DNA of 29,869 nucleotides from a virus, in the IMG/VR virus record IMGVR_UViG_3300044733_002821, positions 1-29,869 of that record; one strand, written 5' to 3'. Of the stretch, positions 19,901 to 29,869 are shown piece after piece. The notes under the pieces were generated by a model, which did no database searches, was not told the origin of the DNA, and was given only the letters and a program-made list of their open reading frames with translations. Position 1 is the stretch's first letter, and each line of letters starts with the position of its first letter. The position numbers and the translations under genes were made by a program.

Positions 19901-20743
19901 CTAGTCCGGTATTTTACTCAAATTTAGTTTTTCTCCTCCTCCAGTATGATAAATATCTAATCCACTTTCATCATCAAAATGCTTTTTCATTGCTTGAACA
20001 TTTTTTAAATCATCATCTGAAAACCCTATATAAGGTGTAAAGTAGTTTGAAATTTTGTTTTTGAAATATGCCTTTTCTTGTAGTCTATGAGATAGATTTT
20101 TTACATACTCCATAAATTGTTTCATTGCACTTACTTTAAGTTCTTCGGGATTGGCGGCCGAACCTTCACCAAAACTAACGGGGTGGTATTTACACATTTC
20201 TAAATATGTTTCTATAAGTTCGTCGTCTGTTAAATCCTCCTCATCAGTTATATCTCTATATTTTCTAAGGTTTTTAACAATTTCTTTTTTATTTAAACCA
20301 TACTTATTTTTGTTAATTAAATTATGAATAGTATCTTTTAAAACACTTGGGGTATGTCCTCTAGCGGTGATTATAGAAAAAATTGAACCGTTATTAACCG
20401 CCTCAACAAAATCGGACCATGCCGGACCAACTTGAGCGGTCATCGCATCGGTCATAAACTTTTTATCACCCGAAACACGGAAATCTCTAAAAGCATCATC
20501 GTCAAAATCCACAATTATGTTCCCCTCATATTTAAAAGGTTTTTTTCCTATTTCAGATCGATACTCCGCAAAATCTTCGGTGGACATACCAACAACCTTT
20601 CCCTTGTCACTTTTTAAATATATTTTAGTTGGCATATACATTAGATTATCATCCCAATCAAATGCATAATATTTCATAGTTGGTTTTAATTGGTCTTGAA
20701 TGATTTCTGATATAATTTTTTTTACTTTACTAGAATAACTCAT
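19901..20743 (-). CDS. HAD-superfamily phosphatase-like protein
   Basis: A 280-aa protein with the full set of haloacid dehalogenase-type motifs. Motif I is FDWDDNLMYMPT with D29 and D31 as nucleophile and general acid. Motif II is IITARGHT with T126. A likely motif III lysine lies in the KVSAMKQF region. Motif IV is GFSDDD (243-245). These enzymes remove phosphate from nucleotides, sugars or nucleic acid ends; the substrate here cannot be told. The insertion between motifs I and II would be the cap. I chose ATG 20743: the upstream extension to 20782 runs through the TATTTAT motif. ATG at codon 23, just before motif I, is an alternative. It sits between sheath and tube, with a terminator and a motif of its own in front, like a cargo gene. 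Confidence 0.82.
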   Translation of the reverse strand: MSYSSKVKKIISEIIQDQLKPTMKYYAFDWDDNLMYMPTKIYLKSDKGKVVGMSTEDFAEYRSEIGKKPFKYEGNIIVDFDDDAFRDFRVSGDKKFMTDAMTAQVGPAWSDFVEAVNNGSIFSIITARGHTPSVLKDTIHNLINKNKYGLNKKEIVKNLRKYRDITDEEDLTDDELIETYLEMCKYHPVSFGEGSAANPEELKVSAMKQFMEYVKNLSHRLQEKAYFKNKISNYFTPYIGFSDDDLKNVQAMKKHFDDESGLDIYHTGGGEKLNLSKIPD

Positions 20744-20747
20744 AACA

Positions 20748-20754
20748 ATAAATA
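20748..20754 (-). promoter_or_regulatory. TATTTAT motif 4 bases before the HAD gene start
   Basis: The minus strand reads AATATTTATTGTTATG. The motif is only 4 bases from the chosen ATG. If it is a promoter, either the message is leaderless or translation starts at the later ATG (codon 23). Confidence 0.45.
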
Positions 20755-20771
20755 TTATTAATATTAAAAAA

Positions 20772-20792
20772 GGGGAGAACATCGCCCCCCCC
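20772..20792 (-). terminator. Rho-independent terminator after the sheath gene, with a G8 tract
   Basis: On the minus strand a run of eight G (complement of C at 20785-20792) pairs with CCCC (20772-20775), followed by TTTTTT. It lies about 20 bases after the sheath stop. The homopolymer is a likely place for length variation or sequencing error. Confidence 0.75.
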
Positions 20793-25476: not shown

Positions 25477-25749
25477 TTACTTGTTGAAATTTTTATAACC
25501 TTGTTGTAATTTATCGTTAAAATGACCTGAAATTAAAATTGTAATTTCGTGCCAATTATATTCTACTTTTGGGTGGTTTTGTTCTAACAACTGTCTAACC
25601 AATCCGATAATTTTTGATTCATAAATACCAAAATTTTTTGGTTTTTTATATAAATCTTTTGCGGTTTTAATTGCATAATTTACATACTTCTCAATATCTT
25701 GTAGTCGTCTCAACAACTGTATTTGAGATTCTTTAATTATTATTTTCAT
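25477..25749 (-). CDS. Hypothetical 90-aa protein with MKIIIKES N-terminus
   Basis: A short basic, largely helical protein: MKIIIKESQIQLLRRLQDIE, then KYVNYAIKTAKDLYKKPK and a more mixed C-terminus. No family is recognised. The first residues contain IKES, which fits the (I/L)xE-(A/G/S) cleavage pattern of the T4 prohead protease; the same IKES sequence occurs between the domains of the gene at 29017. It overlaps the 171-aa gene by one base (TAATG) and is 1 base from the next, so it is part of a three-gene translational unit for the head-tail junction. Confidence 0.7.
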   Translation of the reverse strand: MKIIIKESQIQLLRRLQDIEKYVNYAIKTAKDLYKKPKNFGIYESKIIGLVRQLLEQNHPKVEYNWHEITILISGHFNDKLQQGYKNFNK

Positions 25750-26321: not shown

Positions 26322-28082
26322 TTGGATAATATATCGTCTTTAGTTGAACACAAAGCTCTTGAACTGCTTGATTCTTATAGTGGTGCAAATAACTACATAC
26401 TTTTTTTAAAACAAAAAAAAGAAACATCCAAAAAGTTTTACCCCACCCGAGCTCAAGCGGATTATATTGTGAATTACTTTGAAACAACACCAAAGGTTGC
26501 AAGAAAGTGGGTTGATTTGGATACATACTTTTCTAAAAAGTTTGCTGAAGAAAAATATTTGTTAGAGACTCCTTCACAGATTTATATAGAAAAGTTATTG
26601 GTAGAAAAAGAAAAATCATATCATATTTGGGGAAAGTTTTTTGAAAAAGACCAATTGTCCGAATTTTGGGTTCCCAAATCAGCACTTATCAAAACACATA
26701 ATGTCCAAAGTGTTGAAATTGATTATTCAAAGTATTCTCACCGACCACCATTAAATCATCAAAAAATTGCAATTGAAAAATTGGCAGGTTCAAAAAGATT
26801 TATTCTGGCCGATGACATGGGCCTTGGAAAAACAACCTCAACAATTATTGCATCATTAGAAACAGGATCCAAAAAAATATTAATTGTTTGTCCCGCTTCA
26901 TTAAAAATAAATTGGCAAAGAGAAATTGAAAATTATTCAGATCGTTCTGTTTTTATTTGTGAAGGAAAAAAGTTTTCTACCGAACATGATTTTGTGATTA
27001 TCAATTACGACATATTAAAGAACTTTCACGATCCAAAAAGTAAGGAACCAACCTTATTAGAACAATGCAATTTTGATTTAGTTATTTTGGATGAAGCTCA
27101 TATGATTTCAAATGCTCAAGCTCAAAGAACAAAAATCATAAATAGTTTTGTTAAAAAGATTAATAGAGTATGGTTGTTAACGGGAACACCGATGACTTCA
27201 CGACCTATGAATTATTACAATCTTTTGAGTATCATCGAAAGCCCTGTCGCGCAGAATTGGATGGCTTATGCCATTCGATACTGTCAAGGGTATCAGTTTA
27301 AGGCGGGAAATAGAAAAGTGTGGAATGTTACAGGAGCATCTAACTTAGAAGAGTTAAGAGATCGGACCTCAAAACAAATTCTTAGAAGATTAAAAGAAGA
27401 GGTTTTAGATTTACCTGATAAAATTATTACACCTGTTTATTTAAGATTACAATCAAAAGAATATGAAAATCTAATGGGTGAATACTATGATTGGTATGAT
27501 AGAAATCCTGACGAATCTTCATCACTTACCGTTCAGTTCTCAAAATTAATGAAAGTTCGAAAAGTAATTGCAAATGAAAAAACAAAACAAACAATTGAAT
27601 TTGCGGAAAACATATTAGAACAAGGAAAGAAAGTTATTATTTTTACCAACTTTACAGACTCACTTCAAACAATCTATCAACATTTTAAAAAACAAGCGGT
27701 TTATTTAGATGGTAGTTGTTCAAACTCAGTTCGTCAACAAGCCGTCGACTCATTTCAAAATGACGATAAAATAAAAGTTTTTGTTGGTAATTTAAAGGCC
27801 GCTGGTGTTGGTTTAACTTTAACATCTGCTGAGGTTGTTATTATGAATGATTTATCATTTGTTCCCGCAGAACACGCACAAGCTGAAGATAGGGCCTATC
27901 GTTATGGTCAAAAATCAAATGTATTGGTATATTATCCTTTATATGAAAATACAATTGAGGGTGTGATTTATGATATTTTAAACAAGAAAAAAGAAATTAT
28001 CAGAACCGTGATGGGTGATCAAATACCTGAAAATGTTGGTGATGTTGCTGAGGAAATACTAAACCTAATCAACAAAAGGTGA
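26322..28082 (+). CDS. SNF2-family DNA helicase/ATPase
   Basis: A superfamily 2 helicase of the SNF2 type, resembling the SMARCAL1-like group that rewinds or remodels branched DNA. The motifs appear in order (numbering from TTG 26322): Q-like region PPLNHQKIAIEKL, motif I DDMGLGKTT at 164-172, motif Ia LIVCPASLKINWQRE, motif II DEAH at 257-260, motif III LLTGTP, then KKVIIFTNFTDSLQTIYQHF (motif IV), AAGVGLTLTSAEVVI (V) and QAEDRAYRYGQ (VI). All are intact. T4 UvsW has a related recombination role but belongs to a different group. The frame has no ATG before the domain. TTG 26322 is the best candidate, 30 bases after the TATTTAT motif; TTG 26265 lies upstream of the motif. It is the first gene of a plus-strand set. 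Confidence 0.88.
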   Translation: MDNISSLVEHKALELLDSYSGANNYILFLKQKKETSKKFYPTRAQADYIVNYFETTPKVARKWVDLDTYFSKKFAEEKYLLETPSQIYIEKLLVEKEKSYHIWGKFFEKDQLSEFWVPKSALIKTHNVQSVEIDYSKYSHRPPLNHQKIAIEKLAGSKRFILADDMGLGKTTSTIIASLETGSKKILIVCPASLKINWQREIENYSDRSVFICEGKKFSTEHDFVIINYDILKNFHDPKSKEPTLLEQCNFDLVILDEAHMISNAQAQRTKIINSFVKKINRVWLLTGTPMTSRPMNYYNLLSIIESPVAQNWMAYAIRYCQGYQFKAGNRKVWNVTGASNLEELRDRTSKQILRRLKEEVLDLPDKIITPVYLRLQSKEYENLMGEYYDWYDRNPDESSSLTVQFSKLMKVRKVIANEKTKQTIEFAENILEQGKKVIIFTNFTDSLQTIYQHFKKQAVYLDGSCSNSVRQQAVDSFQNDDKIKVFVGNLKAAGVGLTLTSAEVVIMNDLSFVPAEHAQAEDRAYRYGQKSNVLVYYPLYENTIEGVIYDILNKKKEIIRTVMGDQIPENVGDVAEEILNLINKR

Positions 28083-28089
28083 TATTTAT
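28083..28089 (+). promoter_or_regulatory. TATTTAT promoter-like motif
   Basis: GATATTTATTTAG begins right after the TGA of the helicase gene and 17 bases before ATG 28107. This separates the fibre-like gene from helicase expression. Confidence 0.55.
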
Positions 28090-28106: not shown

Positions 28107-28811
28107 ATGCCAACAAAATTAGATCAAGATCAGATTAGTGGGTTAAGTGAAGAACTTAATTCGTTGGATTCAATAGACGAATCATTAGAAACAAAAATTT
28201 CTACGGAAGATTCAATAAATGATGCTGTTGACGCATCACTAGAAACTTCACTTTTAAGTAAACAAAATACTTTAGTTAGTGGGACAAATATTAAAACAAT
28301 AAACGGAACTTCTTTACTTGGAAGTGGAAACATATCCATAACTGGAGTTGCCAACCCAATAACATTATCTACTAAAGTTGGTTCTAATTTAATAGGAACT
28401 ACAAATCAGATTAGTGCGTTTGTTTTAATACCGGCAGGAACAATCAACACAAACAATTCAATTTATATTCGTAATTTATTAACTAAGACGGCAGGATCAA
28501 CAACATCTACCGCAAGAATTTACATAAACACTTCTAATAGTTTAACAGGAGCAACATTGTTGGGAACCGCGGGAGCAATGAACTCGACAGTCTATATCCA
28601 AAGGTTTGAAAGAAATTTCTTTTTTGACGGAACAAATTTATACGTATATAACCCGTCAAACGGTATAAGCACAGATTTAACTTCAGGAACTATAACTTTA
28701 GTTCCATTTAATCCGGCGATTGATTATTACTTATTGTTTGCGGTCCAAAACTCATCAACAACACCAGACAATCAAGGTCATAAAAGAGTAATCGTTCAGA
28801 TATATGAATAA
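28107..28811 (+). CDS. Fibre-like virion protein
   Basis: A 234-aa protein. The N-terminal 50 residues are helical and acidic with a repeated Ser/Leu/Glu pattern (SIDESLETKISTEDSINDAV), typical of a trimeric stalk. Then comes SGTNIKTINGTSLLGSGNIS (about residues 57-76), a segment found in many phage tail fibres and structural proteins. The remaining 140 residues are strand-rich with Thr/Asn-rich loops (TSTARIYINTSNSLTGATLL) and probably form a beta-sandwich head. A role as a fibre, tail spike or decoration protein follows. It is short for a full tail fibre. The 66-aa gene begins within its last codons (8-base overlap). Confidence 0.65.
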   Translation: MPTKLDQDQISGLSEELNSLDSIDESLETKISTEDSINDAVDASLETSLLSKQNTLVSGTNIKTINGTSLLGSGNISITGVANPITLSTKVGSNLIGTTNQISAFVLIPAGTINTNNSIYIRNLLTKTAGSTTSTARIYINTSNSLTGATLLGTAGAMNSTVYIQRFERNFFFDGTNLYVYNPSNGISTDLTSGTITLVPFNPAIDYYLLFAVQNSSTTPDNQGHKRVIVQIYE

Positions 28812-29004
28812 TTTAACCAAAATCCAAAATGGGTTTAAACTATCAAACATTGACTACATATTTGAAGGTAATTTTGAAATTATAAATGAAACTCAGTCTC
28901 ACGTCCCAACCAATAAAGGTATATTACTTATTGACACCACTATGACAGTAAACGGCAATAGTTTCACAACCATAGATCAATTACTACAAGAACTATACAA
29001 ATAA
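28804..29004 (+). CDS. Hypothetical 66-aa protein
   Basis: A small protein (MNNLTKIQNGFKLSNIDYIF ...) ending FTTIDQLLQELYK. Its start overlaps the end of the fibre-like gene by 8 bases, so it is likely translated by re-initiation. The strand-turn pattern with a final short helix is compatible with a fibre-associated or assembly protein, but I do not recognise it. It ends 12 bases before the peptidase-superoxide dismutase gene. Confidence 0.65.
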   Translation: MNNLTKIQNGFKLSNIDYIFEGNFEIINETQSHVPTNKGILLIDTTMTVNGNSFTTIDQLLQELYK

Positions 29005-29016
29005 AAGTTCATACAA

Positions 29017-29869
29017 ATGAAAGTATCATTCAGTTACGAAAATAAAGATTTTAAAAAACATTCTGACTTTGTTAATAAGTTCATAAAACTTTTGCAACGA
29101 GAATTTCCCTTAAAAAATGATTTAAGAATAATTTTTTTAAATCAAAAAAAAGGTGAAATGTCAACAGGTAGTAGAAGATCGGATAATGTTATTAAAGTCT
29201 TAGTTGGTGATCGAATGAATCGAGACATCATGAGAACCTTAGCTCACGAATGGGTTCACGAACATCAAATGGATGTTTTAAAAAGAGAAAAAGGTCCGGA
29301 CATTGGTGGTAAAAATGAAGATGAGGCGAATGCTTTTGCAGGAAGACTTATTAAAATTTTTGAAAAAGAAAATCCTGATTTTGAACCGAGAATGTATGAA
29401 TATAAAAGTTTAGAAAATAAACTAACTCTAATTAGAGAAAACATACAACGAAACGAAAAATCTTTAATCAAAGAAAGTTTGATTGCTGAGATGAAAAAAA
29501 TTGGAATTGATAAATTACCATACTCATACTCTTCACTTCAAAAATTTATTGACTCTAAAACGATGGATGTTCATTATAACAAACACTATAAGGGTTATGT
29601 TGATAAATTAAATAAGGCACTTAAGAACGAAAGTGGTGATATGGAGTTAGAGGAGATTATCAAATCTATAAGTAAATTTGATAATACCGTTAGAAATAAT
29701 GCCGGAGGTGCCTTTAATCATGCGTTGTTTTGGAAAATGTTATCACCTAAAAAACAAATCCCAAAAGGTGAAATATACGATCAAATAAAAAAAGATTTTG
29801 GTAACATTAAAAAAATGAAAGATGAGTTCAATCAAGCCGCCAAGGATCGTTTCGGTTCAGGATGGGCTT
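29017..29869 (+). CDS. HExxH metallopeptidase fused to Fe/Mn superoxide dismutase (partial)
   Basis: The frame starts at ATG 29017 and is open to the right edge (284 codons). The first half is a zinc metallopeptidase-like domain: LAHEWVHEH holds HExxH (H77, E78, H81), followed by NEDEANAFAGRLIK with E103 as likely third ligand, in the E-x-A-N-x-F-A style of the ImmA/IrrE family. A helical linker leads to an iron/manganese superoxide dismutase domain starting LPYSYSSLQKFIDSKTMDVH. It has H186 in VHYNKHYKGYV, then NNAGGAFNHALFW with H235, LSPKKQIPKGE and DRFGSGW. These align well with E. coli SodB. The Gly at 231 where SodB has Gln suggests the Mn or cambialistic type. The Asp/His ligands of the DxWEHAY motif lie past the edge. 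No frameshift or stop separates the domains. Confidence 0.85.
   Translation, partial: MKVSFSYENKDFKKHSDFVNKFIKLLQREFPLKNDLRIIFLNQKKGEMSTGSRRSDNVIKVLVGDRMNRDIMRTLAHEWVHEHQMDVLKREKGPDIGGKNEDEANAFAGRLIKIFEKENPDFEPRMYEYKSLENKLTLIRENIQRNEKSLIKESLIAEMKKIGIDKLPYSYSSLQKFIDSKTMDVHYNKHYKGYVDKLNKALKNESGDMELEEIIKSISKFDNTVRNNAGGAFNHALFWKMLSPKKQIPKGEIYDQIKKDFGNIKKMKDEFNQAAKDRFGSGWA

Follow-up and report, generated by a model that had tools for sequence, protein, structure and literature searches.

Zincin-bearing polyvalent proteins are an established kind of phage protein (Iyer et al. 2017, PMC5512222), and the internal proteins of phage T4 provide a model for protein packaging (PMC3012670, PMC9026906), with gp21 of T4 cleaving after the motif L/I-x-E (PMC9026906). 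Phages from freshwater metagenomes encode superoxide dismutases which, in the part of the study drawn on here, are reported as host-protecting genes (Kavagutti et al. 2019, PMC6802176). Superoxide dismutases in phages, which an earlier note on this DNA called rare, thus have precedents.

The DNA that we analysed, referred to here as the window, is a stretch of 29,869 nucleotides (positions 1 to 29,869 of IMG/VR virus record IMGVR_UViG_3300044733_002821), the end of which (29017-29869, plus strand) consists of a single open frame, 284 codons long, that runs off the contig edge. These codons (29017..29868) are the 5' part of a polyprotein gene of 733 codons, the rest of which lies beyond the window and which is found at full length in L002 (8001-10202) and L004, two of the 176 relatives returned by a scan of viral contigs. 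Both are 100% identical to residues 1-284 of the window protein and reach a stop at 733 residues, giving the order HExxH zincin, complete Mn-type superoxide dismutase, third module. The earlier note had described a continuous frame fusing the first two, and this is what we find: the frame is open, and a search for the same two-domain order in phage proteins recovered it in 78 different ones whose core is complete. What the two-domain picture did not capture is that the fusion is a portion of a larger modular chain joined by linkers, the third part of which lies past the end of the window and can be exchanged. Among the best 80 loci in each of three scans, the zincin-dismutase core is constant in all contigs that are long enough, and neither the zincin nor the dismutase was found standing alone in these phages. 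The relatives are 347-958 residues long, a few of the shorter ones being cut by contig ends; in one contig (L010, 8001-8573) the frame closes at 190 residues, within the dismutase, through a frameshift or sequencing error.

An assembly chimera is ruled out by the identical, independent contigs L002 and L004 together with the 78 distinct proteins. We looked for an assembly junction between the two halves, which is contradicted by the two 100% identical contigs that run on to the stop; moreover, the 78 proteins share the same order, dN/dS in the dismutase is ~0.03-0.07 and the core is present in every contig that could be judged, and for these reasons we conclude that there is no such junction. 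The earlier note knew of no fusion of this kind, and the open-access literature that we searched likewise yielded no report of a metallopeptidase-dismutase fusion in phages. The possibility that this phage superoxide dismutase was already present in isolate genomes was discarded, as a tblastn search of INPHARED returned 15 records of which 0 covered the fusion. The freshwater record H13 has a plain dismutase gene on a contig with bacterial-looking genes.

The first module (residues 1-128; 29017..29400, plus strand) is a minimal zincin metallopeptidase domain, as judged from an AF2 model and Foldseek. The motif HEWVH (29245..29259, plus strand) supplies the zinc ligands H77 and H81 together with E78, and E103 (29323..29325, plus strand) is the third zinc ligand; each is invariant in 56 of 56 relatives. 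In the model (pLDDT 84.5) the HExxH motif and the third glutamate lie on two successive helices (68-86 and 99-118). The best Foldseek match is Wss1 (probability 1.00, E 9e-3, TM 0.52-0.60), below which come thermolysin-type, IrrE and BepA zincins. All of the residues that the earlier note had named (H77-E78-x-x-H81 and E103) are therefore in place, and its label of an ImmA/IrrE-like peptidase fits as far as the H-H-E ligand set goes; the match to M78 is weak, however, and the nearest fold is that of Wss1. Of 18 members, two had a match to Pfam M78 (PF06114) that fell short of the cut-off (E 0.0086 at best), L002 had no such match, and none of the zincin families in Pfam was matched above its cut-off, so that an ImmA/IrrE identity is unproven. 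Like SprT/Wss1-like and ImmA/IrrE zincins, the phage domain has an HExxH motif and a Glu ligand, with a predicted fold nearest to Wss1 and also close to IrrE, yet it differs from them in reaching no family's Pfam cut-off. A match to OST-HTH within the domain was below cut-off and was discarded.

The second module (residues 164-284 in the window; 29506..29868, plus strand) comprises the N-terminal hairpin domain of a superoxide dismutase and the start of its C-terminal domain (PF00081 and PF02777). The window protein matches Sod_Fe_N with E=6.9e-22 (residues 164-243) and a truncated Sod_Fe_C with E=9.1e-7, whereas in L002 Sod_Fe_C is full (E=2.7e-41) and both families score above their Pfam cut-offs (PF00081, 75.5 bits against 27; PF02777, 140.2 bits against 20.9). 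Compared with solved Mn/Fe superoxide dismutases, the domain (residues 164-356) gives E-values down to 6e-66. The first metal ligand, H186 (29572..29574, plus strand), is invariant in 56 of 56 relatives and the second, H235 (29719..29721, plus strand), in all 55 whose sequence extends over it; these residues and the GSGW motif had been pointed out before and are present in the window frame. Past the edge there is no immediate stop, and L002 continues into DVWEHAYYLKY, which brings the remaining ligands, D321 and H325, within the full Sod_Fe_C domain. The four ligands and the second-sphere tyrosine Y194 are invariant, and overall the eight ligand or catalytic residues of the two enzymes (H77, E78, H81, E103; H186, H235, D321, H325) are invariant across 55-56 distinct relatives. 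The sequence has Gly at the position of the Fe-type Gln (AGGAFNH) and Gln in NQD, which we take to be the Mn-type arrangement, and dN/dS is 0.025-0.073 where computable. In sequence the dismutase is complete and of the Mn type, and its activity is predicted. Among the best 80 bacterial dismutases identity reaches 53-54%, and the best-scoring match is from Maribacter (53%).

Beyond the dismutase, the relatives carry a third module of type A (~350 residues), B (~370 residues, the type of the window's own phage), C (~100-150 residues) or D, or none, in which case a stop follows directly after the dismutase; one chain (L343) runs zincin, dismutase, C, C', A. Module B (L002, 9078-10199; ~370 residues) has a WSNKGQRGCDEKR motif and gave a confident model (82.9), with no match above the Pfam cut-off and none in PHROGs, PDB sequences or PDB folds; no free paralog of it was found. 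Module A contains the motifs GD..NDRKKGQD...QVKP and module D the motifs FEALVSGLLGG...DVI...ISCK, and, judged by eye from these motifs, both look like PD-(D/E)xK nucleases. Assignment of module A to a known nuclease family was rejected, Pfam and PDB giving no match and the resemblance being at the level of motifs (D...QVK).

The zincin and the dismutase are joined by linker 1 (residues 129-158; 29401..29490, plus strand), within which (L/I)xE sites end at E141, E153 and E158. Across 27 dereplicated proteins the density of [LI]xE per 100 residues is 0.5 in the zincin, 8.8 in linker 1, 0.6 in the dismutase, 6.2 in linker 2 and 1.1 in the third module, and the proteome background is 1.3. Composition-preserving shuffles gave 46 such motifs in linker 1 and 15.9 in linker 2, against 95 and 47 observed, with 0 of 300 shuffles as high in either linker, and reversed and frame-shifted control motifs were not enriched, except for [LI]xxE in linker 1. 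At least one (L/I)xE is present in all 78 linker 1 regions and all 67 linker 2 regions. A T4-type S77 protease (E ~1e-24) is encoded on relatives' contigs, rather than in the window, in three of seven cases, and Gp23 in four of seven; the protease was not seen in four of the seven, and these contigs are incomplete. One gp21 homologue lies in L091 (4046-4774, minus strand). Where T4 gp23 reads ...FLTE-AEIGG, gp23 of the relatives reads ...FLINE-ASSDG, so that its propeptide appears to end in FLINE as the T4 counterpart does in FLTE. The linkers look like prohead-protease sites, at which cleavage is putative; E/L/K-rich helical linkers could also bear short (L/I)xE motifs for other reasons.

In a 272-kb relative, many proteins begin with one of a few repeated kinds of short leader ending in (L/I)xE (MKIIITEDQ, MKRIIRLTESDLARIVRRVINEE, MKELIRHILKEE and MNSLHEDIRRIKKLMNLLEGE), and across the proteome the enrichment of [LI]xE is highest near N-termini. 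In T4, Alt starts with MELITEL, and IPII and IPIII start with MKTYQEFIAE. Dozens of proteins in G001 (L082-L095) and G002 (L096-L103) carry the leaders MKIIITE.Q, LTESDLxRIVxRVIxE, xIRHILKE and EIxRIKxLMGL; akin to T4 capsid targeting sequences, these leaders are a possible catalogue of packaged proteins. The window itself encodes a free protein of 90 residues (25477..25749, minus strand) whose leader, MKIIIKESQ..., belongs to this class (compare the MKIIITESQ leaders of relatives). A conserved FDWDDN-type (HAD-like) gene that lies between the tail sheath and tail tube genes, both in the window (19901-20782, minus strand) and in G001 (115139-115969), begins with a leader-like KIISEII/IITEI, and its G001 copy has no Pfam match. 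The polyprotein has no N-terminal capsid targeting sequence (~7-19 residues ending in (L/I)xE), its start (MKVSFSYENKDF...) being already zincin, and capsid targeting would therefore need the internal linkers or docking of the zincin to the core; this is the weakest point of a packaging reading.

Free-standing versions of modules A, C and D exist as well, preceded by short leaders and without a zincin, and module C in this form sometimes makes up a tandem array that immediately follows the polyprotein gene. In L324, L346, L343 and L080/L081 there are between two and four such copies of module C, each with an MKIIITE-type leader and mostly lying directly downstream of the polyprotein gene; such arrays are likely the raw material for fusions. 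When fused and free copies are aligned, the linker site coincides with the leader site, both in L324 (fused KKKNIITENQSDKIN, free MKIIITENQSDKIN) and in L080 (fused KKPLNESISLKEKLLGLIKK, free YKLIKENVSLKEKLLGLIKK). As read from these alignments, the linker in L324 is a leader fused within the chain, and the cassettes are fused cargo genes.

Mapping the type of third module onto a tree of 60 core sequences takes 17 changes, and well-supported branches force at least nine changes for A, at least eight for B and at least five for none. Between L148 (type B) and L154 (type A), identity is 98.7% across a stretch of 6,097 bp that ends 19 bp beyond the core; their cassettes are unrelated, and 97.8% identity resumes immediately downstream of the stop codon. 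Clean breakpoints of this kind are also found in L058/L067, L024/L142, L024/L036, L064/L070 and L005/L149. In L058/L067, dS is 0.03 in the zincin as compared with 1.67 in the dismutase, and in L148/L154 the corresponding values are 0.06 and 0.37. By these sequence comparisons, near-identical phages have swapped the third module on many occasions, the breakpoints falling within the linker, and the dismutase segment too has evidently been replaced at linker 1, the zincin staying in place.

Upstream of the polyprotein gene lie a fibre-like, possibly wac/fibritin-like, gene of 234 residues (28107..28811, plus strand), an open frame with a weak PHROG match of unknown function that has the same position in G001 and G002, and a 66-residue open frame (28804..29004, plus strand) of unknown function, a homologue of which is in the same place in G001. 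The gene downstream of the polyprotein specifies a head-tail adaptor (phrog_211, E=1.7e-8). A late-promoter-like motif, ATATTTAT (in GATATTTAT), precedes the cluster of fibre-like, 66-residue and polyprotein genes at 28082..28089 (plus strand). In two relatives 34-38% of genes have TATTTAT no more than 60 nt in front of them, compared with 2.3-2.9% of random stretches; it precedes the genes for gp21, terminase, portal, sheath, tube, head-tail adaptor and fibre-like proteins and is absent before those for DNA polymerase, UvsW, DinB, the other metabolic genes examined and gp23. Of 60 polyprotein genes, 48 have it no more than 80 nt away and 58 no more than 1.1 kb away. TATTTAT/GATATTTAT has the appearance of a late promoter for these phages. 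In the window this motif is found upstream of structural genes at 28082, 24190, 20755, 19846, 18325, 16464 and 3533, as it is in relatives; on the coding strand, it corresponds to a portion of the T4 late consensus TATAAATA in reverse complement. Upstream of G001 genes there is also a ~6.6-fold enrichment of a separate motif, TATATTTG, which resembles the Bacteroidota -7 consensus TAnnTTTG; this enrichment and the Bacteroidota-like dismutase together hint at a Bacteroidota host.

We infer that the protein is packaged in the virion from the (L/I)xE sites in its linkers, the free paralogs with leaders, the motif resembling a late promoter and the neighbouring gene for a head-tail adaptor. The earlier note had taken the fibre-like neighbour as a hint of this; virion cargo is indeed plausible, and the case now leans less on that neighbour. 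The gene probably specifies, in our judgement and with modest confidence, a late-expressed, virion-packaged, protease-processed cargo polyprotein of a T4-like phage. The polyprotein would enter the prohead core alongside other leader-bearing proteins, where the prohead protease (the gp21 homologue) would cut the (L/I)xE linkers and so turn the peptidase, the dismutase and the third module into separate internal proteins, which would leave the particle together with the DNA. Once inside the cell, the dismutase may remove superoxide arising at infection, or else it may shield the packaged genome within the virion; the zincin may cut host proteins or aid processing, and the nuclease-like modules A and D may act on nucleic acid. 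Our fuller picture is a tentative one that we would sooner doubt than assert: the protein could be a head-borne, cleavable, cassette-swapping loading rack for injected enzymes in T4-like phages of environmental bacteria, with an active Mn superoxide dismutase as a fixed passenger that would neutralise a superoxide burst at infection, as an anti-oxidative counter-defence, or guard the packaged genome.

Were the gene instead an auxiliary metabolic gene, its product would stay unpackaged in the infected cell, where the dismutase would shield the host from superoxide and the zincin would release itself or regulate release. Freshwater phage superoxide dismutases were earlier read in this way, in the part of that study used here (PMC6802176), the dismutase of this locus is Bacteroidota-like among the best 80 bacterial dismutases, and the zincins of polyvalent proteins have been proposed to autoprocess (PMC5512222). 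We nonetheless consider an unpackaged enzyme unlikely, given that the late-type motif is common to head and tail genes and not to replication genes, that the gene sits between a fibre-like gene and a head-tail adaptor, that the linkers match the prohead protease motif, and that linker 2 aligns with, or descends from, the leaders of other proteins. The linkers also bear on whether the chain is packaged and injected whole, with the zincin, not the prohead protease, freeing the dismutase and third module in the host: what is enriched in them is the motif of the S77 protease, and the free leader-bearing paralogs share that motif without any zincin. Such autoprocessing strikes us as improbable, even though the polyvalent proteins of phages are centred on a zincin, which has been proposed to cut them (PMC5512222), and even though the dismutase is always accompanied by a zincin among the best 80 loci per scan in three scans. 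Least probable of all, in our estimate, is a structural role in which the protein would be a neck, collar or tail part with the dismutase fold as a dimer scaffold, as its fibre-like and head-tail adaptor neighbours and its invariant core might suggest; the catalytic ligands of both enzymes are all invariant and dN/dS is very low, the third module is missing or unrelated in close relatives, which is unexpected in a structural part, and the modules are separable, with free paralogs.

If a packaged cargo polyprotein is the correct reading, the list of injected phage proteins would gain an oxidative-stress enzyme, and the use of superoxide by bacteria against phages, and the phage answer to it from the first minute, would become testable. 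One gene would load several enzymes into the head, by a route leading from free leader-bearing cargo genes to fused modules and then to exchange at protease-site linkers, and the leader peptides combined with the late-type motif would offer a way to predict the injected repertoire of a large group of uncultured phages. Neither a polyvalent protein with a dismutase, nor leader-derived protease-site linkers, nor capsid-targeting leaders in metagenomic phages turned up in the open-access literature that we searched; on our best reading, a dismutase module in a cargo protein of the polyvalent or T4-internal-protein kind is without an earlier report in that literature.

The dismutase domain is like the Mn/Fe superoxide dismutases of Bacteroidota in its full domain, four metal ligands and Mn-type Gln in NQD, and differs from them in sitting between two linkers in a phage protein of ~360-958 residues. 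With the freshwater phage genes for defence against reactive oxygen species it has in common that the superoxide dismutases are phage-encoded and come from freshwater metagenomes; the part of that report considered here does not describe a fusion or virion cargo for them (PMC6802176). The T4 internal proteins IPI, IPII, IPIII and Alt have short leaders ending in (L/I)xE (MELITE in Alt, MKTYQEFIAE in IPIII), and the phages described here have (L/I)xE sites and the same protease and capsid families in the genome, with the protease on relatives' contigs. The T4 proteins, however, are single proteins with an N-terminal leader each, and none is a dismutase, whereas the phage polyprotein is leaderless and carries several domains on internal sites. 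Polyvalent proteins likewise combine several unrelated enzyme domains per chain (here a zincin and a dismutase in all, with third modules A-D), regularly include a zincin with HExxH and a downstream Glu, and are encoded beside late virion genes, as here beside a head-tail adaptor gene and with a late-type motif (PMC5512222). Packaging, processing and injection were proposed for them and are suggested by sequence for the present protein; superoxide dismutase is not mentioned among them (0 matches for 'superoxide' in PMC5512222). Our polyprotein differs from them, finally, in that its linkers carry (L/I)xE and align with the leaders of free paralogs, and in that whole cassettes swap between near-identical T4-like phages.
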